From Acetatifactor sp. (GTDB taxonomy: Bacteria; Bacillota; Clostridia; Lachnospirales; Lachnospiraceae), in assembly GCA_029050705.1 (NCBI GenBank), contig JAIDME010000491.1, positions 1 to 35,315 on the forward strand: DNA of 35,315 nucleotides, given 5' to 3'. Positions 6,403 through 21,660 of the stretch are shown here, piece after piece. Position 1 is the stretch's first letter, and each line of letters opens with the position of its first letter. The notes under the pieces were generated by a model that did no database searches, was not told where the DNA came from, and saw nothing but the letters and a program-made list of their open reading frames with translations. The position numbers and the translations under genes were made by a program.

Positions 6403-7941
6403 ATGGTTGAATTGCGCAGTACGATCTATGAATTGCTTGTAAAGGCGGAGGAAGCCTATGGCACACAGGATGCCATAAGATATAAGGTAAAGGAAGATGG
6501 TCAAAGCGGTAAAAAAGAAACTAAGGTAGCGGCAAAAACATATACGCAGCTGCGGCAGGACAGCGGGCATTTCTCAATGGCATTGGAAAAATTGGGTGAG
6601 CGGGGCAGACATATCGCCCTCGTCGGCGCCACATCTTATTCCTGGATCACAGGCTATTACGGCATTGTAAATGGCGGCAGTGTGGCGGTGCCCCTTGATG
6701 CAAATCTTCCGGCAGAGGACTTATGTGAACTGATTGACAGGGCGGATGTGACCACCCTTGTTTATGATGAATCGAAAGCCAGTGTGGCGCTTATGGCGGC
6801 GGAGAAGTGTCTGAAGCTTGTCAATATCATAGCAATGGATGCGGATACTGCGGTTCCGAATGCCCTGTCCATGTGGGAACTGATCGGGGATGCACCGGAG
6901 AGAACGGATTATGAGCCGAAGCCGGAGGACCTGGCCACGATCATGTTTACTTCCGGCACTACCGGAAAAAGTAAAGGCGTTATGCTTACCCACAGGAATC
7001 TGGCGGAGAATGCCACAGCGCTCGATATGGGATATGCGCCGGGGATGGTTGTCATGACTGTACTTCCCATTCATCATGCATACTGCCTGAGCATGGATAT
7101 TCTCAAGGGAACTTCTATAGGAGCAATCATCTGTATCAACGATTCTCTTTTGAGAGTTGCCAGAAACATCAAGCTTTTTGAGCCGAATATGATCCTGATG
7201 GTTCCGCTTATGGTGGAAACACTTGCAAAGAAATTGGAGGAAGCGTCTTTTATTCCGGCGGCTCTTGTCAAGGCCAAGGTATTCGGGAAGCAGTTCCATA
7301 CGGTGTGCAGCGGCGGGGCATACCTGAATCCGGCGTATATCGATCTGTTTAAAAAGTACGGCATCACAGTTCTGCAGGGTTACGGCATGACGGAGTGCGC
7401 ACCGGTGATAAGCACAAACTGCAATGATGCGTTTAAGGCGGGATCCATTGGGAAATGTATGCCCAACTGTGAAGTGAAGATTGTAGATGAAGAAATCTGG
7501 GTAAAAGGCACCAGCGTTATGCAGGGTTATTATCAAATGCCTGAGGAGACAGCTCAGACACTGGAAGAGGGCTGGCTGAAAACAGGTGATCTGGGTTACA
7601 TAGACGAGGATGGGTTCCTGTTTTTGACGGGACGCAAGAAAAACCTGATCATTACACCCAACGGCGAGAATGTATCTCCGGAAGAAATTGAGAATAAACT
7701 CAGCGCGAACCGGTTGGTGCAGGAGGTTTTGGTACGTGACAGCGAAGGCGTGATCGAGGCCGAAATCTTTCCTGATTATGAATATGCGGCAAAAAAGAAG
7801 ATCAAGGACCTGCAGGCAGAGCTTCAGTCGATCATTGACGCCTATAATAAGGCGGCGCCGCTTTATAAGCGCGTCTTCAAACTGAAAGTGCGTGATGCGG
7901 AGTTCGAAAAGAATACGACCAAAAAAATCAAGAGATTTTAA
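6403..7941 (+). CDS. AMP-dependent synthetase/ligase (acyl-CoA/acyl-ACP ligase-like)
   Basis: FTSGTTGKSKGVMLTHRN (A3), GYGMTECAPV (A5), TGDLGYIDEDGFLFLTGRKKNLI (A7/A8). Start at MVELRST after gagaggag RBS. Confidence 0.93.
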   Translation: MVELRSTIYELLVKAEEAYGTQDAIRYKVKEDGQSGKKETKVAAKTYTQLRQDSGHFSMALEKLGERGRHIALVGATSYSWITGYYGIVNGGSVAVPLDANLPAEDLCELIDRADVTTLVYDESKASVALMAAEKCLKLVNIIAMDADTAVPNALSMWELIGDAPERTDYEPKPEDLATIMFTSGTTGKSKGVMLTHRNLAENATALDMGYAPGMVVMTVLPIHHAYCLSMDILKGTSIGAIICINDSLLRVARNIKLFEPNMILMVPLMVETLAKKLEEASFIPAALVKAKVFGKQFHTVCSGGAYLNPAYIDLFKKYGITVLQGYGMTECAPVISTNCNDAFKAGSIGKCMPNCEVKIVDEEIWVKGTSVMQGYYQMPEETAQTLEEGWLKTGDLGYIDEDGFLFLTGRKKNLIITPNGENVSPEEIENKLSANRLVQEVLVRDSEGVIEAEIFPDYEYAAKKKIKDLQAELQSIIDAYNKAAPLYKRVFKLKVRDAEFEKNTTKKIKRF

Positions 7942-8034
7942 TAAGTTGTCATTTAAGTCCCGGCCTGATATACTTACTGTATTGAGGTGATGTACACCTG
8001 CGTTTGAAATTGAAGGATAGGCGAGGGACTACAC

Positions 8035-11000
8035 ATGAAAAAGCAGAGGCCTTTACAGGAGATTATTTATGCCGTTTTCCTTTTAGCGGTTATTATACTT
8101 TTATTTTTCTGGTTTACGGAACAGAATAGCAGACGTACAGAGGAACAGAACAAAGAATATGCGGCGGACGCTGCACGGCTGAAGGCCGGGCAGATTGACG
8201 ATGACCTGAATAATGCCCTGGGCCGGATCAGGACCTATGCGTACTTTGTAGGAGCAGGTCTGACAGAGCCTGTGATCACGGCACAGATGCTTGAAAAGAT
8301 GGAAGAAAACTCTCTGTTTGATGCCGTTATGTTCACGGATATTAACGGTGTGGACTATGCTTCGGATGGACGGACTGCAGACGTGACGGAGCGGGGATTT
8401 TACAGTGATGCTATCTGCGGGAACAGCGGCATGGAGATTATATTTGAACCCCACTTTTTTAACGAGACAATGGCATGCTTTTATGCACCGGTCTACTTTG
8501 ATGACCGGATCATCGGTGTACTGCGGGGGGCCTTTCTGGCCGAAGAATATTTGAGAAGTATGCTCAACACCACATATTTCGGGGAGGAGGCTCAGGTATT
8601 TCTGTGTACGCCGGAAGGCAGGGTAATTGCCAGCTCTGACGGTACGGTTTATGAAGGACATCTTCTTGACATGCTGGCGGAGACCGGTATGATTGATCGT
8701 GCTGCTTCAGACCGGGTTCGTCAGGTCTTTGAAAATGGCGGGGAGGGTGCTTTTGCATGTGATTCTGCCAGTAAGACAGACAATATTTGTATCACATATC
8801 TGCCGAAAAACTCTTGCGTTTTGGTGCAGATGTTTCCTAAAAATATTACGCAAAACATGATCGCGGAAGAAAATCTTGTGGGAATTCAGCTGGAGATCAT
8901 GCTGATCGTGTTGTTTGCCGTCTATATCGTCATCATTCTGATCCGTGCCGGACGTATGCGGAAACAGCTGGAGAAGGAAAACCGGGAGATGGGATACATT
9001 ATAAGCGGTGTCAATACACTGTTTTCACGGTTTGCCATGGTTGATCTTGAGGAGGAAACCTATCAGTATCTTGCAGGGACAAAACCGGAAGGTACAGAAA
9101 TCGCAGAGAGCGGAAAATATCAGGATCTTGTGGTTTATCTGGCTTCTCCTGTGGAAGAAAACTGCCGTCAGGAGCTTGTTGATTCCATGGCTAAAGAATC
9201 TATTATCGCGGCTATGTCAGGGCGGAATGACCTGCGGTATGAGCGCTGTGTGACAAGAGACGGACACACGGATTGGGAACATATGAATGTCGTTTGCCTG
9301 GAAAGAAAAGACAATAAGGCAGCCAAGGTTTTATTTATCCGGCAGAATGTAACGGAGTTAAAGGAAAGAGAGCTGCGCATTCAGGCGGAGAGGGCTCTTG
9401 CGAACCGCAGGGAGAGACAGTATCAGACAGCGCTCATGTCCAACTCCTTATGCGGCTTTGAGTTTAACCTGACCCGGGATCTTCTTGAGCAGGACATTAT
9501 CAGAACCGTGGACGGGCAAAAGATATCCCTCCTGGAGCAGGTGGGTCTGACAGCACCCTGTAAGGTTTCGGAATTTTTTGAAATAAGGAAACAGTTTGTT
9601 ATGGAGGAATCCCTGGAGGATTATTCTGCCACAGTAAACACAGAGAATCTGATCAGATGCTATGAGCAGGGTGAAAGAGAAGTCATAGCCGAGTATTGGG
9701 GAAGTGGCTGCGGGCATGACCAGATATGTGTACGCCAGTCCTTTATTATGACCAGGGACGACGAAACGGGTGACATTATGGTCATGGTGGTATCCAGGGA
9801 TATCACGGAACAGGTCAGGAAACAGAGGGAGCAGACTCAGGCACTTCAGGATGCGCTGATGCAGGCACAGCACGCAAACAAGGCCAAGACCACATTTTTG
9901 TCCAATATGTCCCATGATATCCGTACTCCCATGAATGCCATTATAGGATTTTCCACCATTGCAGTCAGCCATATCGACAACAGGGATCAGGTGCTGGATT
10001 GTCTGCAGAAGGTTCTATCCTCCAGCAATCATCTGCTCAGTCTGATCAATGATATTCTGGACATGAGCAGGATCGAGAGCGGAAAAGTGCAGATTAAAGA
10101 GCAGGAATGCAATATTTCCGAACAAATGCACAATCTGGTAAACATCATCCAGCCCCAGATCAAGGCAAAACAGCTTGAATTGTTTATTGATACCTTTGAA
10201 GTTACCAATGAGGATGTGATTGCCGATCCTCTGAAGCTAAACCAGGTGTTCCTTAATCTGCTGAGCAATGCGGTGAAGTATACGCCCGCCGGGGGCACGG
10301 TCTCATTTCGAATCATGCAGAAGACGACTTTCCGGCACGGATACGGCGATTATACATTTATTGTCAAGGACAATGGTATCGGAATGTCGCCGGAATTTGT
10401 GGAGCATATCTTTGAACCCTTTGAGCGGGAGTCCACCGTGACACAGAGCGGTATTCAGGGAACCGGGCTTGGTATGGCCATTACCAAAAATATCGTGGAG
10501 ATGATGAACGGCACCATTACAGTTGAGAGCGAGGCGGGTAAGGGCAGCACATTTACGGTAAATCTTGAATTAAAGCTGCAGGATACGGAAAAAACAGAGA
10601 GACAGATTAAAGAGCTGGAGGGCCTGCGGGCGCTGGTGGTGGATGATGATTTTAATACCTGCGACAGCGTCAGCAAGATGTTAAAACAAATTGGTTTGCG
10701 TTCCGAGTGGACTACCTCGGGCAGAGAAGCAGTGTACCGTGCTAAGAGCGCCCATGAGGAAGGGGACTCCTACCATACCTATATTATTGACTGGCAGATG
10801 CCGGGGCTCAGCGGAGTGGAAACGACCAGAGAGATCCGGAAGGTGGTGGGCAAGGAGGCTCCCATTATCATTCTGACCGCATATGAATGGACGGATATTG
10901 AGGAGGAGGCCAAGGCGGCGGGAGTCACAGCTTTCTGTGCGAAACCCATGTTTATGTCCGACTTGAAATCGGTGCTGCTTGCCGCCAACAATCTGCTGGA

Positions 11001-13732: not shown

Positions 13733-15439
13733 ATGAAAAAGTATTTATTTTACCAAAACATGATTCGGTTGTGGGCACTTATTTTGCTGCAGACAATGCG
13801 GACGGCAGGGACAGTAGGGGTGGCCGTTTTGATCAATATGCTGATTGATGCCGTCCAGGCGGCCATTGCGGTTAAAGATGTAAAGACCCTGATAGATTGC
13901 GGGATTATATGCAGTATCTATGCCTTTGGGCTGGGAGGAGTTATTCTGGCGGCGGAGAGACTTAAAGCAGCAAACATAAGGCATATTATGCTGAATCTGC
14001 GCCGGGGTATTGTGCATGGCGCGCTGGATAAAAGAATTTCAGATTATCAGGGAAGGAACAGTGCGGAATACATCACGCTGCTGAACCAAAATCTGGGGAC
14101 TTTTGAAGAAAGCTATTTGAAAAATCTGCTCTCTGTTTATGATTCCGCTATAGGCATTCTGATCGCAGTAATTCTTTTGGTGTGGATCGATCCGTTTATT
14201 GCGGTGATCTCCATTGCTGCTATGGCAATCCCCGGTCTTATTCCGAAAGTTTTCGGGAAAAGGCTGGGAGTCCTTCAAAGCGGTATCATGCAGAGCGCGG
14301 AGAAGTACAATGTGAAGATCAAGGACATATTTAACGGTTTTGAGTTGATCAAGACCTATCAGGCAGATAAAAGGCTTGAAAGGCTTCATGATGAAAGCGC
14401 CAATGCACTGGAAGACAGCAAGGCGAGGATGGCAGACACGATGGCACTGTTATATGCCCTCGCCAATATGGCTTCCGTTGCGGTTCAGTTCCTGATCATG
14501 ACATTAGCCGGAATATTCGCTGTAAAGGGATTGATTACAATAGGCAGCATCATTGCCGTCACCCAGCTTACGGGACAGGTAATCTCTCCGGCGTTCCGGC
14601 TTTCGGCCCAAATCAGTCAATTTAAGGCAGTGAAGCCGATCTGCGGACAGATCAAAGAAAATATGCAGGGGACGGATGTGTGCGGGCATATGCCTGTACA
14701 GCAGGAAATGGAGCATGCCCTGGTGCTGAAGGATGTATCTTTTTCCTATGAAAGCAATCCTGTTGAGGATGCTTCTGCCGTAGAACATGTCAGCCTGCAG
14801 TTTGACCGCGGAAAAAAATATGCGGTTGTCGGCAGGAGCGGAAGCGGGAAAAGTACACTGCTCAAGCTTCTGGCCGGATATTATGACAGCTATTCAGGCA
14901 GAATCCTGCTGGACGGCAGTGAGGGCAGACAGGTGCGTGCAACACTGATTCACCAGAATCCGTTCCTTTTTGACGATACGATCCGGAACAATATTACCCT
15001 GTATGAGACTTATCCGGATGCAGCAGTAAAAGGAGCCTGTCATCTGGCAGGGCTGGATGACCTGATTGACAGCCTGGAAGGCGGCCTTGACACGGAGGTC
15101 TCGGAAAACGGCTCCCGTTTTTCGGGCGGGGAAAAGCAGCGGATTGCCGTGGCAAGGGCAATTTTGCACAGGGAAAAGGTATTTTTGCTGGACGAGGCCA
15201 CCTCGGCTCTGGACAGTGAAACCACAAATTTCGTTGAGGACAGCATATTCTCGCTGGAAAATACTACCTGTATTGCGGTCACACATAAGCTAACGCCAAA
15301 TTCTCTGCAGAAATATGACGAGATACTTGTGATGGATAATGGGAAAATTGTTCAGAGGGGCAGCTATGACAGGCTGCTTGCGGCATCCGGTCCGTTTTCG
15401 GAACTTTATTCTGCAGGAATGAGGTCTTCTGATTCCTGA
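13733..15439 (+). CDS. ABC transporter, fused permease/ATP-binding half-exporter
   Basis: N-terminal TM domain; Walker A GRSGSGKST, signature FSGGEKQR, Walker B KVFLLDEATSALD; no N-terminal C39 peptidase. Confidence 0.92.
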   Translation: MKKYLFYQNMIRLWALILLQTMRTAGTVGVAVLINMLIDAVQAAIAVKDVKTLIDCGIICSIYAFGLGGVILAAERLKAANIRHIMLNLRRGIVHGALDKRISDYQGRNSAEYITLLNQNLGTFEESYLKNLLSVYDSAIGILIAVILLVWIDPFIAVISIAAMAIPGLIPKVFGKRLGVLQSGIMQSAEKYNVKIKDIFNGFELIKTYQADKRLERLHDESANALEDSKARMADTMALLYALANMASVAVQFLIMTLAGIFAVKGLITIGSIIAVTQLTGQVISPAFRLSAQISQFKAVKPICGQIKENMQGTDVCGHMPVQQEMEHALVLKDVSFSYESNPVEDASAVEHVSLQFDRGKKYAVVGRSGSGKSTLLKLLAGYYDSYSGRILLDGSEGRQVRATLIHQNPFLFDDTIRNNITLYETYPDAAVKGACHLAGLDDLIDSLEGGLDTEVSENGSRFSGGEKQRIAVARAILHREKVFLLDEATSALDSETTNFVEDSIFSLENTTCIAVTHKLTPNSLQKYDEILVMDNGKIVQRGSYDRLLAASGPFSELYSAGMRSSDS

Positions 15440-15448
15440 CAGTGGTTC

Positions 15449-15805
15449 TTATGTATCTGCTAAGTTTGCCTTGTAAGCTGTGCCCCATGCTGCCATGGAA
15501 TCCAGGATGGGGCGCAGGGTTTCACCCAGTTCGCTTAAAGCATATTCCACCCGTGGCGGCACCTCCGGATATACAGTGCGTGTTATGATGTTATCTGATT
15601 CCAAAGAGCGCAGGTTGTCAGTCAATACTTTCTGGCTGATTCCTGCCAGGTCTTTTTTCAGTTCGTTAAAACGCCAGGGGCGTGTCAGCAGGTTACGTAT
15701 GATCAGCAATTTCCATTTGCTTCCGATCAGTTCTACTGTTGTCGCCACCGGGCATGTCGGCATTTCTTCCTTTGTCAGCATCAGCTCACCTCCGTAAAAG
15801 TTCAA
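15449..15805 (-). CDS. HxlR family winged-helix regulator
   Basis: CPVATTVELIGSKWKLLIIRNLLTRPWRFNELKKDLAGISQKVLTDNLRSLESDNIITRTVYPEVPPRVEYALSELGETLRPIL is typical HxlR. Confidence 0.95.
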   Translation of the reverse strand: MNFYGGELMLTKEEMPTCPVATTVELIGSKWKLLIIRNLLTRPWRFNELKKDLAGISQKVLTDNLRSLESDNIITRTVYPEVPPRVEYALSELGETLRPILDSMAAWGTAYKANLADT

Positions 15806-15824
15806 AATGGAATGTTACATGCAA

Positions 15825-15853
15825 ATTATAATCTAATATATAAAAACGGTCAA
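15825..15853 (-). promoter_or_regulatory. Promoter of the HxlR gene
   Basis: Minus strand TTGACC (15853-15848), 17 nt, TATAAT (15830-15825). Confidence 0.6.
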
Positions 15854-15878
15854 GTGAATGTAATGGTTAATATAGCTA

Positions 15879-15907
15879 TTGTATAAAAAAGAAATATATG
15901 ACATACT
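15879..15907 (+). promoter_or_regulatory. Candidate promoter for the small toxin mRNA
   Basis: TTGTAT (15879-15884), 17 nt, CATACT (15902-15907), upstream of a structured leader. Confidence 0.45.
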
Positions 15908-16005
15908 GTATGCGTGGGAAACCCTAGAGCCAAAGGCGGCTTTACCCTCTGTTTTTTGCGGAGGGTTCAAGTAGCTATCCAGACGAAAGAAAGGAGGGCG
16001 ATGCA

Positions 16006-16101
16006 ATGTATGTTACATATCAGGATTTGATCCAGATTGGAATACTCGTTGTTGCCCTTGCTAATTTGATTTATCAGATTTACAAGGGCAAAAAGAAATA
16101 G
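16006..16101 (+). CDS. Putative holin-like type I toxin peptide (31 aa: MYVTYQDLIQIGILVVALANLIYQIYKGKKK)
   Basis: Below the ORF-track length cutoff; strong RBS aaaggagg (about 15990-15997); single hydrophobic helix plus basic tail, typical of TxpA/BsrG-like holin-like toxins. Confidence 0.8.
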   Translation: MYVTYQDLIQIGILVVALANLIYQIYKGKKK

Positions 16102-16197
16102 CCGCCACTACCACCAATAGTGACGGCATACCTCGTATGAGGTTGTAGCTTATTCATTTAAGGGGTAGAGCCGCTTCTATGGCTTTCCCTCTTTATG
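16095..16197 (-). ncRNA. Predicted cis-antisense antitoxin RNA of about 100 nt overlapping the 3' end of the toxin mRNA
   Basis: Minus-strand promoter TTGAAT (16231-16226), 17 nt, TATATT (16208-16203); minus-strand terminator hairpin GCCGTCACTA…TAGTGGCGGC followed by TATTTCTTTTT. Confidence 0.55.
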
Positions 16198-16319
16198 TCT
16201 ATAATATAGCACATCCGGCAGCGGAATTCAAGAGCCAAACACATCACGAATATAAATGGTTACAAAAAGGTGACTTAGTAATAAAAAAGTGCGTACTTTT
16301 TTGATGATCATTCACATTT

Positions 16320-16325
16320 TATAAT
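16320..16325 (+). promoter_or_regulatory. -10 element upstream of the RiPP precursor
   Basis: TATAAT at 16320-16325, T-rich poor -35 about 17 nt upstream; inverted repeat AAAAAAGT-GCGT-ACTTTTTT just upstream. Confidence 0.45.
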
Positions 16326-16377
16326 GTATATGCAGGCAAACATTAGCCTGTAAAAAAAGAAACGGAGGTAATTTGTC

Positions 16378-16659
16378 ATGGCACTTTCTAATTTGGCAAG
16401 CTGGAACAGGCTGGCAGCACCTGCTTCCGCCTGTGGAGCAGGAGACAGCAACGCTTCCAAGGGCAGCGATGAGAAGAAGCCCGCAGCGTGCGGCTCTGCC
16501 TGCGGAGCAGGAGACAACAACGCTTCCGAAGGCAGCGCGGAGGAGAAGCCTGCAGCGTGCGGCTCTGCCTGCGGAGCAGGAGACAACAGCGCATCTGACG
16601 GCAGCGCGAAGGAGAAGCCTGCAGCATGCGGTTCTGCCTGCGGAGCCGGGGATAAATAG
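16378..16659 (+). CDS. Repeat-containing RiPP precursor (ACGX-repeat-like), 93 aa
   Basis: RBS acggagg before ATG; 16-aa N-terminus then 3 x 23-aa repeats plus a final SACGAGDK; 7 Cys; followed by a radical SAM/SPASM gene. Confidence 0.88.
   Translation: MALSNLASWNRLAAPASACGAGDSNASKGSDEKKPAACGSACGAGDNNASEGSAEEKPAACGSACGAGDNSASDGSAKEKPAACGSACGAGDK
16426..16656 (+). repeat. 69-bp in-frame tandem repeat encoding SACGAGD(N/S)xAS…KPAACG
   Basis: SACGAGD units begin at 16426, 16495, 16564 and 16633, exactly 69 bp apart. Confidence 0.93.
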
Positions 16660-16679
16660 TCCGGTTGACTATGTTCTGC

Positions 16680-16715
16680 CCCCGGCAGCTTATGTACATA
16701 GAAAGGCTGCCGGGG
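16680..16715 (+). terminator. Hairpin between precursor and maturase (attenuator/processing or stabilising stem)
   Basis: Perfect 10-bp stem CCCCGGCAGC (16680-16689) / GCTGCCGGGG (16706-16715) without a U-tract. Confidence 0.55.
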
Positions 16716-16780
16716 ACTTCCCGAGTTATTACGCTTACTGCGTTTCACATAAAATGGAGACTGAAAGGAAGAAATGATCA

Positions 16781-17833
16781 ATGAAAGAATACTTTGCTTT
16801 TCAATGGCATATCACAGATGACTGTGACCAGAGATGCAAACACTGCTATATTTTTTCCGAAGATAATTGTAAGAAACCGGAATCTGTATCCTGGGATCAG
16901 ATGCAGGAGGTGGTGGCAAACTGTGAAGATTTTTGTGAGGTGTATCATCGCCTGCCCTATTTTTATATTACAGGAGGCGATCCGATCCTGCATCCGGATT
17001 TCTGGTGGCTGCTGGAGCTGCTGAAAAGCAAAAATATTCCTTTTGCCATCCTTGGGAATCCTTTCCATCTGGATACAAAGGTCTGCAGGAGATTAAAGGA
17101 GTACGGCTGTCAGAAATATCAACTGTCTCTGGATGGGATGCGGCAGACTCATGACTGGTTCCGCAAGCCGGGCTCTTTTGATATTACGCTTGAAAAGATA
17201 GACTGTCTCAAGCAGGCAGGTATCCGTGCGGTGATCATGACTACAGTTTCCGGCAAAAATATCAAAGAGGTTCCCGATATTATTGATACGGTGGTGGAGC
17301 ATAAGGCTGATGTGTTTGCGTTTGCCAGGTACTGCCCCACCAGTGAGGAGAAGGATACAGGCATATCCCCCATGGAATACAGGGAACTGCTGGCGGTCTG
17401 CGATAAAAAATTTAAGAAATATGAAGCGGCAGGATGTGAGACGTTTTTTAATAAAAAGGACCATCTTTGGACGCTGTATGAATATGAAACAGGTGAGTTT
17501 AAGATACCGGAGAATGCACAGGAGGGCATGATCTATGGTGGCTGTAACTGCGGAAACTGCCATTTGACCATTTTGCCCAATGGGGATGTCTATGCCTGCC
17601 GCAGAGTGCAGAACAGCAAGGTGTCGAATGTCTTTGAGGACCGTCTGGCGGATGTGTGGGTGTGTCAGATGGAGCAGTACCGGGAGTATGATAAGTTCAA
17701 GAAATGTGCCAAATGCGAATTGAAAGCATGGTGCCGGGGCTGTCCGGCGGTGGCAAGCGGCGCCCACAGCATAAATGGGGAGCCGGGAGATTTTTATGAA
17801 GCAGACCCGCAATGCTGGAAAGAAGTGGTATAA
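16781..17833 (+). CDS. Radical SAM/SPASM RiPP maturase (ACGX-system-like)
   Basis: CDQRCKHCY (CxxxCxxC) radical SAM motif; C-terminal SPASM-type cysteines CNCGNC…CRR…CAKCELKAWCRGC…C. Confidence 0.92.
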   Translation: MKEYFAFQWHITDDCDQRCKHCYIFSEDNCKKPESVSWDQMQEVVANCEDFCEVYHRLPYFYITGGDPILHPDFWWLLELLKSKNIPFAILGNPFHLDTKVCRRLKEYGCQKYQLSLDGMRQTHDWFRKPGSFDITLEKIDCLKQAGIRAVIMTTVSGKNIKEVPDIIDTVVEHKADVFAFARYCPTSEEKDTGISPMEYRELLAVCDKKFKKYEAAGCETFFNKKDHLWTLYEYETGEFKIPENAQEGMIYGGCNCGNCHLTILPNGDVYACRRVQNSKVSNVFEDRLADVWVCQMEQYREYDKFKKCAKCELKAWCRGCPAVASGAHSINGEPGDFYEADPQCWKEVV

Positions 17834-17835
17834 AT

Positions 17836-18411
17836 ATGTTGATGGATATTATTGAGGCACGTCATTCCGTCCGGAAGTATACTGAGCAGCAGGTCAGCCG
17901 TGAGGATATGGAACTGATCCTGAAGGCGGGGAATTTTGCCCCGAATGCAGGGGGCGGACAGCGGAGTATGCTGGTGGGGATTCGGAACAGTGAACTGACA
18001 ACGAAGATCGGCATTATGAACCTGGCAGGATTTGACCGTTCCAGGCTGACAGGCTCCTATGTTTCCAAAGAGCAGCCCAGTATCATTGATGACCCGTCCA
18101 TGAAGAATGGGTTTTATGGTGCTCCGTCGGTTGTGGCGGTCTTTGGGCAGAACGGTTTCCTGTATCGTATTGCGGATGCTTTCTGCTGTGCGGAAAATAT
18201 GGTTCTGCAGGCTGCGGAACTGGGCATATCCTCCTGTATCATCGCCCGTGGAGAGGAGACATTTGGCAGTCCGGAAGGCCAGGAATTATTGAAGGAGTGG
18301 GAGATTCCTGAAAATTATTCCGCAATCTGTTTTGTGATCCTTGGATATATTGACGGAGAACAGCCTCATACAAAGCCGAGAAGGCCGGGCCGGGTGAAGA
18401 TTATTGAGTAA
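17836..18411 (+). CDS. Nitroreductase family protein
   Basis: DIIEARHSVRKYTEQQVSREDMELILKAGNFAPNAGG…; C-terminal ICFVILGYIDGEQPHTKPRRP. Start 3 nt after the maturase stop. Confidence 0.92.
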   Translation: MLMDIIEARHSVRKYTEQQVSREDMELILKAGNFAPNAGGGQRSMLVGIRNSELTTKIGIMNLAGFDRSRLTGSYVSKEQPSIIDDPSMKNGFYGAPSVVAVFGQNGFLYRIADAFCCAENMVLQAAELGISSCIIARGEETFGSPEGQELLKEWEIPENYSAICFVILGYIDGEQPHTKPRRPGRVKIIE

Positions 18412-18425
18412 ATCGGGAGGAAAAT

Positions 18426-19040
18426 ATGGACGCAGAAACGTGTTTAAAGAAATTACAATATGTGGGGGTCCTGGCGTTTGCCACGGTGGACGGGGAAGGA
18501 AATCCGCAGATCCGGAATATCAGCGCCATTCATTATGAACCGGATGCCATGTATTTTTTTACTGCCAGAGGCAAGGATTTTTGCAGGGAACTGCTTGCTG
18601 ACGGGCGGGTCCAGGTACTTGGGTATACCAAATATAAAGAAATGATCCGACTGTCTGCAAAAGCGGAACCGGTTGCGGAGAGTGATCAGAAAAAGTGGAT
18701 GGATGCCATATTTGAGGAACAGCCGTATCTTTCCAATGTGTATCCGGGTGATACAAGAAGCATCGGCATCATATTCCAAATCAAAGACGCGCAGATTGAA
18801 TATTTCCATCTCGGGGTTAATCCGATCTTCCGGGAAACATATGTGATCGGGAGAGGAAACATTACGCCAAAGGGGTATCAGATTACGGATGCCTGCATTG
18901 GCTGCGGGAAGTGTGAGAGAAATTGTCCCCAGCGGTGTATTGAAAAAGGAAGTCCATATCAGATCAGTCAGGAACACTGTCTGCATTGCGGGAACTGTTA
19001 CGAACTGTGCCCGATCAAGGCAGTAGAAAGAAGGCATTGA
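18426..19040 (+). CDS. Pyridoxamine 5'-phosphate oxidase-like flavin-binding protein fused to a 2x[4Fe-4S] ferredoxin domain
   Basis: PNPOx-like N-terminus (LAFATVDGEGNPQIRNISAIHYEPDAMYFFT); CIGCGKCERNCP and CLHCGNCYELCP clusters. Confidence 0.9.
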   Translation: MDAETCLKKLQYVGVLAFATVDGEGNPQIRNISAIHYEPDAMYFFTARGKDFCRELLADGRVQVLGYTKYKEMIRLSAKAEPVAESDQKKWMDAIFEEQPYLSNVYPGDTRSIGIIFQIKDAQIEYFHLGVNPIFRETYVIGRGNITPKGYQITDACIGCGKCERNCPQRCIEKGSPYQISQEHCLHCGNCYELCPIKAVERRH

Positions 19041-19042
19041 AT

Positions 19043-19864
19043 ATGAATCAGGCGGAAAGACGACATTTTCTTATAAATGAGCTTTTGAAAGAACAGCCCG
19101 GGTACAGGCATATGAAGATACCCCGGGATCAGACCGGGCAGAAGCAGCTCCTCCGTTCCCTTATGAATGTCAGGATGCCCGGGGCGGCCACGCAGGAATT
19201 TTTAGAGGTTCAGGATGCATACCTGCAGGAAGAAACTGCGGGGAAAGGGATCGTGAACCTGGTGGAGGACATAGAGCCGGTGGCAGAGGGCATTTATCTG
19301 TGGCAGGGCGACATCACAACGCTGCGGTGTGATGCCATTGTCAATGCGGCCAACAGCGGGATGACCGGGTGTTATGCCCCGTGCCATGGCTGCATTGATA
19401 ACTGTATCCACACTTTTTCCGGTATCCAGCTGAGACTTGCCTGTGCGGAACTGATGGAGCAGCAGGGGCATGAGGAGGAGACAGGAAAGGCAAAGATCAC
19501 ACCGGCTTTTAATCTGCCTTGCAGATATGTCATCCATACAGTGGGCCCCATTATTTCCGGGCGGTTAAGGGATGAGGATAAAGAACTGCTTGCTTCCTGT
19601 TACCGCTCCTGCCTGGAACTGGCAGAGAAAAATCATCTGGAGAGTATTGCTTTCTGCTGTATTTCTACGGGCGAATTTCATTTTCCGAATGAGTTGGCAG
19701 CTCAGATCGCTGTGCGTACGGTCAAGGAGTTTATGCAAAGGGAGACAAGCATAAAGAAAGTAATCTTTAACGTATTCAAGGATCTGGATAAACAGATTTA
19801 TGAGGAACTATTGAGGAAAGGAGCCGGGATTTTCTATGATATTGAAATACAGAACAGGAGATAA
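19043..19864 (+). CDS. Zinc-type macrodomain protein-ADP-ribose hydrolase
   Basis: Macro motif WQGDITTLRCDAIVNAANSGMTGCYAPCHGCIDNCIHTFSGIQLR; VIHTVGPI; ISTGEFHFP. Confidence 0.93.
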   Translation: MNQAERRHFLINELLKEQPGYRHMKIPRDQTGQKQLLRSLMNVRMPGAATQEFLEVQDAYLQEETAGKGIVNLVEDIEPVAEGIYLWQGDITTLRCDAIVNAANSGMTGCYAPCHGCIDNCIHTFSGIQLRLACAELMEQQGHEEETGKAKITPAFNLPCRYVIHTVGPIISGRLRDEDKELLASCYRSCLELAEKNHLESIAFCCISTGEFHFPNELAAQIAVRTVKEFMQRETSIKKVIFNVFKDLDKQIYEELLRKGAGIFYDIEIQNRR

Positions 19865-20696
19865 CAAATCAGAAAATATCAAAAAGCTGCAATCTGCCAT
19901 AGCGGAGTCTGAGGCCGTGGTGATTGGCGCGGGTGCGGGACTTTCCACCTCTGCGGGATTTGTCTATACGGGGGAACGCTTCCGGCAGTATTTTTCGGAC
20001 TTTGCAGAAAAGTATGATTTCCGGGATATGTATACGGGTGGTTTTTACCCTTACCAGACGCCGGAGGAGCATTGGGCATACTGGAGCCGCTATATCTATG
20101 TCAACCGCTATATGGATGCGCCGAAGCCGGTATACGGGGAACTGCTTGAACTGGTAAAGGATAAGGATTATTTTGTCATCACAACAAATGTGGATCATTG
20201 CTTTCAGAAGGCCGGGTTTGACAGGAAAAGGCTTTTTTATACCCAGGGGGATTACGGTCTGTTTCAGTGCAGTGAACCATGCTGCCGGGAGACTTTTGAA
20301 AATGAAGACATCATTCGCCGGATGATGGATCAGCAGAAAGATATGCGGATTCCGTCAGAACTTTTGCCGGTATGCCCCCATTGCGGAAAACCTTTGACTA
20401 TGAACCTGCGTGCGGACAATAAATTTGTTGAGGACGCTGGCTGGCATTTGGCGGCAGAGCGGTACAACAATTTCCTGCGGACAAGAAAAAATCTGCGCAT
20501 TCTCTTTCTGGAACTGGGGGTTGGCTATAATACCCCCGGCATCATCAAATACCCGTTCTGGCAGATGACGGCGGAGAATCCGAAAGCAATCTACGCTTGT
20601 GTCAACTATGGGGAAGCCGCATGTCCACATGAGATAAAAAAACAGTCTATCTGCATTGACGGGGATATAGGGGAGATTTTAAAAAATTTGCTGTAG
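19836..20696 (+). CDS. SirTM-type Sir2 family NAD-dependent protein (probable ADP-ribosyltransferase)
   Basis: VVIGAGAGLSTSAGFVYTGERF, TTNVDHCFQKAGF, CPHCGKPLTMNLR; 29-nt overlap with the macrodomain gene. Confidence 0.9.
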   Translation: MILKYRTGDNKSENIKKLQSAIAESEAVVIGAGAGLSTSAGFVYTGERFRQYFSDFAEKYDFRDMYTGGFYPYQTPEEHWAYWSRYIYVNRYMDAPKPVYGELLELVKDKDYFVITTNVDHCFQKAGFDRKRLFYTQGDYGLFQCSEPCCRETFENEDIIRRMMDQQKDMRIPSELLPVCPHCGKPLTMNLRADNKFVEDAGWHLAAERYNNFLRTRKNLRILFLELGVGYNTPGIIKYPFWQMTAENPKAIYACVNYGEAACPHEIKKQSICIDGDIGEILKNLL

Positions 20697-20757
20697 ACTC
20701 ATGGAATAAAAACTGTCGCTGTGATAAAATAAGGCCAATATGGAGGAAAATTGTAAT

Positions 20758-21660
20758 ATGGCAGGATATTTATTTGCACATTTTATCGGCGAAGAAAAGG
20801 ATGGAGAGCAGATTTATTTCTCTTTAAGCAGGGACGGCCTGCATTGGAATGATTTGAACAACGGAAAACCGGTTCTGTACTCGAGGACGGGCACGGAAGG
20901 GGTCAGAGACCCTTACCCCGTCAGAGATCCCCGGAACGGGAAAGTGTATCTGATCGCCACGGATCTGCGTATTCAGGCAGGATATGGCTGGACGGCTGCC
21001 CAGGAGAAGGGAAGCCGTGATCTGATCGTGTGGGAAACGGAGGACCTTGTCCATTGGGGCAGTGAGCATGCCTGTACAGTGGGAGTGCAGGGCGCAGGCT
21101 GCGTATGGGCACCGGAGGCTGTATTTGACAAAATAAAAGGTAAGTTTCTGGTGTTTTTTGCATCTAAGGTAAAAAACAGCGGGGAAGCAGAGGGAAAGCA
21201 CCGGATATATGCTGCCTATACGGAGGATTTCCGGGAATTTTCGGAGACATTTCTCTATATGGAACGGGATAACCATGTGATTGATACCACCATTCTGGAA
21301 AGCCGGGGACAATTTTACCGGGTATCAAAAGACGAGACGGTGAAGAGGCTGATTTTGGAGAAATCGGATGCTCTGCTGGGGGAGTTTACCCGGATAGAGT
21401 CGCCCACGCTGGATGCATTGGATGGAGTGGAGGGGCCGGAAGGTTATCTGCTTCCCGATGGGGAATGGTGTCTGATCGCAGATCAGTTTGCGGCAGGAAA
21501 GGGCTATCTGCCGCTGGTGACTAAAGATTTGAGTTCCGGGGATTTCAGAATACTGGCGCCGGAGCAATATGACATGGGCAAGACAAAAAAGCGCCATGGC
21601 GGGATCCTGGAAATTACGGATGAGGAATATGACAGGCTGGAAGCCGCTTATATGGTTTGA
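20758..21660 (+). CDS. Glycoside hydrolase family 43-like (beta-propeller, arabinosidase/xylosidase type)
   Basis: MAGYLFAHFIGEEKDGEQIYFSLSRDGLHWNDLNNGKPVL…GVRDPYPVRDPRNGKVYLIATDL; …WAPEAVFD…FASK. Confidence 0.78.
   Translation: MAGYLFAHFIGEEKDGEQIYFSLSRDGLHWNDLNNGKPVLYSRTGTEGVRDPYPVRDPRNGKVYLIATDLRIQAGYGWTAAQEKGSRDLIVWETEDLVHWGSEHACTVGVQGAGCVWAPEAVFDKIKGKFLVFFASKVKNSGEAEGKHRIYAAYTEDFREFSETFLYMERDNHVIDTTILESRGQFYRVSKDETVKRLILEKSDALLGEFTRIESPTLDALDGVEGPEGYLLPDGEWCLIADQFAAGKGYLPLVTKDLSSGDFRILAPEQYDMGKTKKRHGGILEITDEEYDRLEAAYMV

Follow-up and report, generated by a model that had tools for sequence, protein, structure and literature searches.

What does a radical SAM/SPASM enzyme do to the cysteine-rich repeat peptide encoded directly before it, and what would the modified peptide be for? 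In the window, i.e. the whole 35,315-nt stretch of Acetatifactor sp. DNA that was analysed, a 93-aa ORF and a radical SAM/SPASM gene stand side by side, as an earlier note on this DNA had described, and open a six-gene array (Table 1).

Table 1. Features of the acg operon and its upstream region, in window coordinates
Feature	Position	Strand	Evidence or remark
HxlR-family transcriptional regulator, divergent from the acg operon	15449..15805	-	Pfam HxlR 111 bits
Putative HxlR operator, GTTAC-N6-GTGAC-N14-GTGCGTACTT	16259..16298	+	~90 nt upstream of acgA
acgA, ACGX-repeat precursor peptide, 93 aa	16378..16659	+	TIGR04341 84.1 bits, cut-off 28
AcgA repeat unit 1, 23 codons, SACGAGDSNASKGSDEKKPAACG	16426..16494	+	
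AcgA repeat unit 2, SACGAGDNNASEGSAEEKPAACG	16495..16563	+	
AcgA repeat unit 3, SACGAGDNSASDGSAKEKPAACG, then terminal SACGAGDK	16564..16632	+	
Hairpin CCCCGGCAGC...GCTGCCGGGG between acgA and acgM	16680..16715	+	window z -1.9
acgM, radical SAM/SPASM maturase, 350 aa	16781..17833	+	TIGR04340 605.2 bits, cut-off 400
Nitroreductase-family flavoprotein	17836..18411	+	Pfam Nitroreductase 69 bits; starts 2 nt after acgM
PNPOx-like domain fused to two-cluster ferredoxin	18426..19040	+	Pfam PNPOx_N 39 bits, Fer4 42 bits
Zinc-dependent macrodomain (Zn-Macro), protein-ADP-ribose hydrolase	19043..19864	+	NF003163 366 bits, cut-off 272
SirTM, class-M sirtuin (predicted ADP-ribosyltransferase)	19836..20696	+	5a3a 249 bits

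The precursor and its maturase

The ACGX family name that the note had suggested for the pair proved right. The two genes correspond to acgA (TIGR04341) and acgM (TIGR04340) and are a member of NCBI's ACGX system, with both proteins far above the cut-offs and in the same gene order; these matches, that of the maturase to TIGR04340 among them, support the proposed pairing of a RiPP-type precursor with a SPASM maturase. The family itself is already catalogued by NCBI, in an entry silent on chemistry, function, operator and SirTM context, and RefSeq uses the names acgA and acgM in other gut Clostridia. We found no paper on ACGX, on TIGR04340/TIGR04341 or on acgM with radical SAM, in a search that covered subscription literature thinly, so earlier mentions are possible. 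The genome carries one copy of each gene.

The acgA frame starts with ATG behind a good ribosome binding site, and its TIGR04341 score together with its conserved position argues against a chance ORF, since almost all homologous loci whose sequence extends that far have it just upstream of the maturase gene. The short leader remarked on before is real and has the family consensus MALSNLxGW, whose Trp9 is kept in 86 of the 91 precursors compared below. Seven cysteines, four C-X3-D units and the ACGSACGAGD junctions are seen in the sequence. The repeats had been called three exact copies of 23 aa, but the units differ, and at the DNA level the second and third 92-nt copies share 90% and 80% identity with the first. 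Only the SACGAGD and PAACG cores are identical between repeats. Across the copies, core codons show 10 synonymous and 0 non-synonymous changes, against 4 synonymous and 13 non-synonymous changes in the linkers; thus the motif is held by selection at the protein level, which excludes an artefact of recent duplication, and the cores are under strong purifying selection. The linkers in the window are longer and Asn/Ser-rich, whereas the usual ACGX linker is KPEEKP. A selenopeptide was considered and dropped, as the ORF needs no TGA read-through; TIGR04081 gave 0 matches in 300 genomes of the phylum, a result that carries no weight, since that model matched nothing anywhere.

The hairpin between acgA and acgM recurs in the majority of homologous loci (53 of 84 have z below -2, and the median z is -2.2) and probably sets the precursor level above that of the enzyme. 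An Rfam scan of 15400-17000 gave no match. At three other acgM loci (L007, L033 and L040) the precursor is missing or without the MALSNL leader, possibly through assembly collapse of the repeats or through true decay.

Cys-Gly units and the chemistry of AcgM

The earlier note had assigned the pair to the ranthipeptides of the freyrasin type, since PapA/PapB have in common with acg the repeated C-X3-D units and a SPASM maturase. AcgM would then act like PapB on freyrasin and join each Cys by a thioether to the Asp or Glu at +4, and the AcgA of the window does carry C-X3-D/E in four units. The family tells a different story. We pooled 91 distinct precursors, one of them (L026) a doubtful ORF, from 80 genome-contig loci, 197 relatives, phylum matches and plasmid records, each with 2 to 15 cysteines. 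Gly directly follows 586 of their 591 cysteines and Ala directly precedes 551. CX3C arrangements take up 257 of the 591, which have no acid of their own at +4, while the remaining 331 Cys-Gly (terminal) units have Asp at +4 in 283 cases (85%), Glu in 13, another acid within +7 in 27 and none within +7 in 8. Across the family, C-X3-D/E is therefore not general, as 35 units besides the 257 CX3C ones lack D or E at +4. In natural repeats the Asp of CX3D is replaced by A, S, G, K or E, CX3D is entirely absent from three of the 91 precursors, and the precursor of an archaeal Methanosphaera plasmid is built of ACGTE/ACGGE/ACGSE repeats. These counts and the archaeal repeats show that Cys-Gly is the fixed element of the AcgA family, and that Asp is a strong preference and dispensable.

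AcgM, which is highly conserved, has SbtM (TIGR04082) as its second-best NCBIfam model with 174.3 bits; the AhbD model gives 117 bits and the PapB model 58.7 bits, short of its cut-off of 340. All 24 homologues scanned likewise match SbtM, second only to TIGR04340 (best E-value). The SbtM membership cut-off of 350 is not reached and the match covers profile positions 197-503 of 516, the SbtM-type N-terminal region being absent, so on profile grounds the likeness is to be read as resemblance and not as membership. SbtM forms a thio(seleno)oxazole by taking four hydrogens off a Cys or Sec peptide (PMC11002830), and the motif of the SbtA peptide family is listed as SGUG (PMC13188914). AcgA has Cys-Gly where SbtA has SGUG, and differs in its many Cys sites and in having no Sec; Cys or Sec followed by Gly in the core, as expected for SbtM-type substrates, is the arrangement of the 586 cysteines counted above. 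Taken together, the SbtM likeness and the Cys-Gly motif point to a Cys-centred chemistry at Cys-Gly. Judging from sequence, we favour such a modification over a CX3D thioether: AcgM would modify the Cys of the Ala-Cys-Gly units, most likely by an SbtM-like oxidation (thiooxazole type, -4 Da per site), and obligate Cys-Asp thioethers would be its less likely product.

The ranthipeptide assignment was thus given up as the best reading, on both motif statistics and maturase scores, and is retained as a rival that we consider quite unlikely. It is supported by the Asp or Glu found at +4 in most terminal units, or the other acid within +7; moreover, PapB is promiscuous and accepts C-Xn-D/E with n of 0-6 (PMC9413430), and acid-less repeats might use a nearby Glu or remain unmodified. 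The CX3C cysteines, the 8 acid-free units, the three precursors devoid of CX3D and the low PapB score speak against it, and the chemistry leaves the invariant Gly after Cys unexplained. An Asp at +4 in 85% of terminal units nevertheless means that this residue matters for something, which counts against our own explanation.

The structure model of AcgM does not decide the chemistry, because its SPASM half is too weak (AlphaFold mean pLDDT 68) and Foldseek returns generic radical SAM/SPASM enzymes; a sequence search of the PDB gave distant radical SAM enzymes only. Anti-phage defence was also considered and rejected, PADLOC giving only generic viperin-like radical SAM matches (54 bits) and a ferredoxin-like match. 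Elsewhere (L121, 1459-2865, +), beside another radical SAM gene and with no Cys-Gly repeat peptide, lies the gene for a further SPASM relative of AcgM (241 bits, short of the cut-off), perhaps of a sister family.

The operon, its putative operator and the SirTM/Zn-Macro pair

The precursor/maturase pair had been recognized correctly, but the redox/ADP-ribosylation operon around it had been missed. The genes run acgA-acgM-nitroreductase-PNPOx/ferredoxin-Zn-macrodomain-SirTM with the divergent HxlR gene opposite, separated after acgM by gaps of 2, 14 and 2 nt and then by one overlap (Zn-Macro/SirTM), and Roseburia sp. 831b shows the identical order. After dereplication at 90% AcgM identity, a divergent HxlR gene lies within 1 kb in 32 of 45 acgM loci. 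Among the 36 loci with at least 3.5 kb downstream, acgM is accompanied by SirTM in 25, PNPOx-ferredoxin in 24, nitroreductase in 22 (counted with a cleaned model, since fused ORFs join maturase and nitroreductase) and Zn-Macro in 17.

Genes for an exporter, a leader protease or immunity are not among the recurrent neighbours within 5 kb of the acgM loci. This bears on the reading of AcgA as an exported antimicrobial or signalling RiPP, with the stress genes incidental, which would suit a short-leader precursor beside a SPASM maturase and could draw on the ABC exporter gene upstream of the operon in the window (13733-15439). Such an ABC gene is found upstream in only 3 of the 45 dereplicated loci; a bacteriocin was dropped for want of a recurrent exporter or immunity gene, and we hold export in general to be very improbable. 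Downstream, a weak GH43-like glycosidase gene (20740-21660, +) begins 43 nt after SirTM; it occurs in 2 loci only and is for this reason probably not part of the system.

The element upstream of acgA has the family form GT[TAC]AC-N6-GT[AG]AC-N14-GTGCGTACTT. Exact copies of the 10-mer stand in 72 of 89 upstream regions (~0 in shuffles), the composite spacing is fixed in 53 of the 89, and the strict pattern occurs once in the genome. In loci with SirTM/Zn-Macro and no acgM, the 10-mer lies at most 400 bp upstream of island genes in five cases, four of them beside a divergent HxlR gene (9 matches in 537 kb, against ~1 expected); one of the five, L187, retains nitroreductase and may be an acg relic. 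HxlR would bind this element, and its signal is suggested by what the family responds to. Two loci look like relics: L163 (5222-8281) keeps HxlR, nitroreductase pieces, Zn-Macro and SirTM with a fragmentary acgM, and L187 (1-3330) keeps HxlR, the nitroreductase gene, Zn-Macro and SirTM with acgM missing. Between HxlR and acgA of the window, a 31-aa hydrophobic peptide ORF (MYVTYQDLIQIGILVVALANLIYQIYKGKKK, 16006-16101, +) scores 20.8 bits against Hol_Tox, a putative holin-like toxin family, just under the cut-off of 23.3, and is possibly a type I toxin-antitoxin element. An archaeal acg cluster is found on plasmid pNP174 of Methanosphaera sp. ISO3-F5 (7140-9025), with an HxlR-type regulator, the palindrome GTAACCATTTGGTTAC between HxlR and acgA, an ACGTE/ACGGE precursor, acgM split in two frames and a divergent PNPOx-ferredoxin gene; it points to an exchange of genes between a methanogen and gut Clostridia.

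The Zn-Macro protein matches structures 8rsi (277 bits) and 5kiv (243 bits) and has the zinc loop GCYAPCHGCIDN. The SirTM class is marked by an adjacent zinc-dependent macrodomain, as seen here in the overlapping genes. In alignment with 5a3a, SirTM of the window has Gln at the catalytic position (QG), and the catalytic His is likewise replaced by Gln in 46 of 46 acg-linked SirTMs, two of which were read by eye as QGSYN. Zn-Macro is present in 16 of 21 acgA-positive against 39 of 176 acgA-negative relatives (odds ratio 11; Fisher p 1.5e-6, an optimistic value, as the 197 relatives are kin to one another). On a quick and hence approximate SirTM tree of 90 rows, the link to acg changes at least 11 times on starred branches, so the association has been made or lost repeatedly. 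Many relatives have SirTM/Zn-Macro without acg, sometimes with HxlR and PNPOx-ferredoxin as companions, and about one third of acg loci are without SirTM; the link may therefore be one of coregulation and not of enzyme and substrate. No GCV_H domain was matched in the whole genome (~90% complete), and 60 genomes with acgA or Zn-Macro gave only partial GcvH matches of 20-26 bits, which are probably biotinyl domains.

A possible carrier under ADP-ribosylation control

To our knowledge, GcvH-L is the sole protein known as a target of SirTM ADP-ribosylation. In staphylococci and streptococci, SirTM ADP-ribosylates lipoylated GcvH-L and Zn-Macro reverses this, the S. pyogenes site being Asp27, and flavin oxidoreductases adjoin (PMC4518038, PMC11490716); the targets of other SirTM/Zn-Macro systems are still elusive according to a 2024 Zn-Macro paper (PMC11490716). 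Like the acg operon, the extended operon of S. aureus and S. pyogenes has a SirTM with His-to-Gln, a Zn-Macro, flavin oxidoreductases and, in lipoyl-GcvH-L and LplA2, a small carrier with its modifying enzyme in a redox-stress setting. The acg operon differs in that AcgA/AcgM occupy the place of GcvH-L/LplA2 in a genome with no GcvH domain, that nitroreductase and PNPOx-ferredoxin stand where the extended operon has OYE/LLM, and that it is HxlR-linked. This common logic (carrier, sulfur-modifying enzyme, flavin/Fe-S partners, SirTM and Zn-Macro) leads us to propose a gated intracellular sulfur carrier.

Gene identities, tight gene order, motif conservation, the shared operator and co-occurrence are directly seen. 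What AcgM does chemically, what stress is sensed, and that AcgA works as a carrier and is targeted by SirTM, are inferred. Tentatively, and at somewhat less than an even chance, AcgA is an intracellular, multi-site sulfur-modified carrier made under redox or electrophile stress, possibly gated by SirTM/Zn-Macro, in place of lipoyl-GcvH-L. It would stay inside the cell and not be a secreted antibiotic. The divergent HxlR would control the operon and presumably be released by redox or electrophile stress, and AcgA, through its modified sulfur sites, may work as a carrier that is redox-active or binds metal, with the nitroreductase and the PNPOx-ferredoxin of the operon as partners. As SirTM does with lipoyl-GcvH-L, the SirTM/Zn-Macro pair would reversibly ADP-ribosylate some member of the system; the Asp/Glu-rich AcgA is a plausible one. 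The stricter version, in which AcgM-modified AcgA is the SirTM/Zn-Macro substrate and replaces lipoyl-GcvH-L as redox carrier in these gut Clostridia operons, we consider unlikely.

Perhaps, instead, the two pairs AcgA/AcgM and SirTM/Zn-Macro share an HxlR redox regulon and move as neighbours while each has a role of its own; SirTM would act on another protein, and AcgA would be a stand-alone thiol or metal sink. The operator upstream of acg-less SirTM/Zn-Macro operons, the HxlR and PNPOx-ferredoxin found with them, and the general lack of a clear GcvH in Lachnospirales SirTM genomes, so that other targets must exist, fit this reading. The very tight packing in the window and the repeated joining on the SirTM tree suggest more than coregulation, however, and the layout fits the carrier, modifier, flavin enzyme, SirTM and Zn-Macro logic of the GcvH-L operon (PMC4518038); we regard separate membership as unlikely.

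A named but unexplained RiPP family now has HxlR as its likely regulon, Cys-Gly and not CX3D as the probable place of its chemistry, and redox or electrophile stress as a candidate physiological setting. We found no earlier report linking a RiPP system to SirTM/Zn-Macro ADP-ribosylation, and the SirTM papers PMC4518038 and PMC11490716 mention neither radical SAM nor ACGX. In the acg operon, common gut bacteria supply a candidate SirTM target that is small and easy to purify, which makes the question of SirTM targets directly testable. Should AcgA indeed be such a target, SirTM would have a second known substrate, and a RiPP would come under reversible control by ADP-ribosylation.
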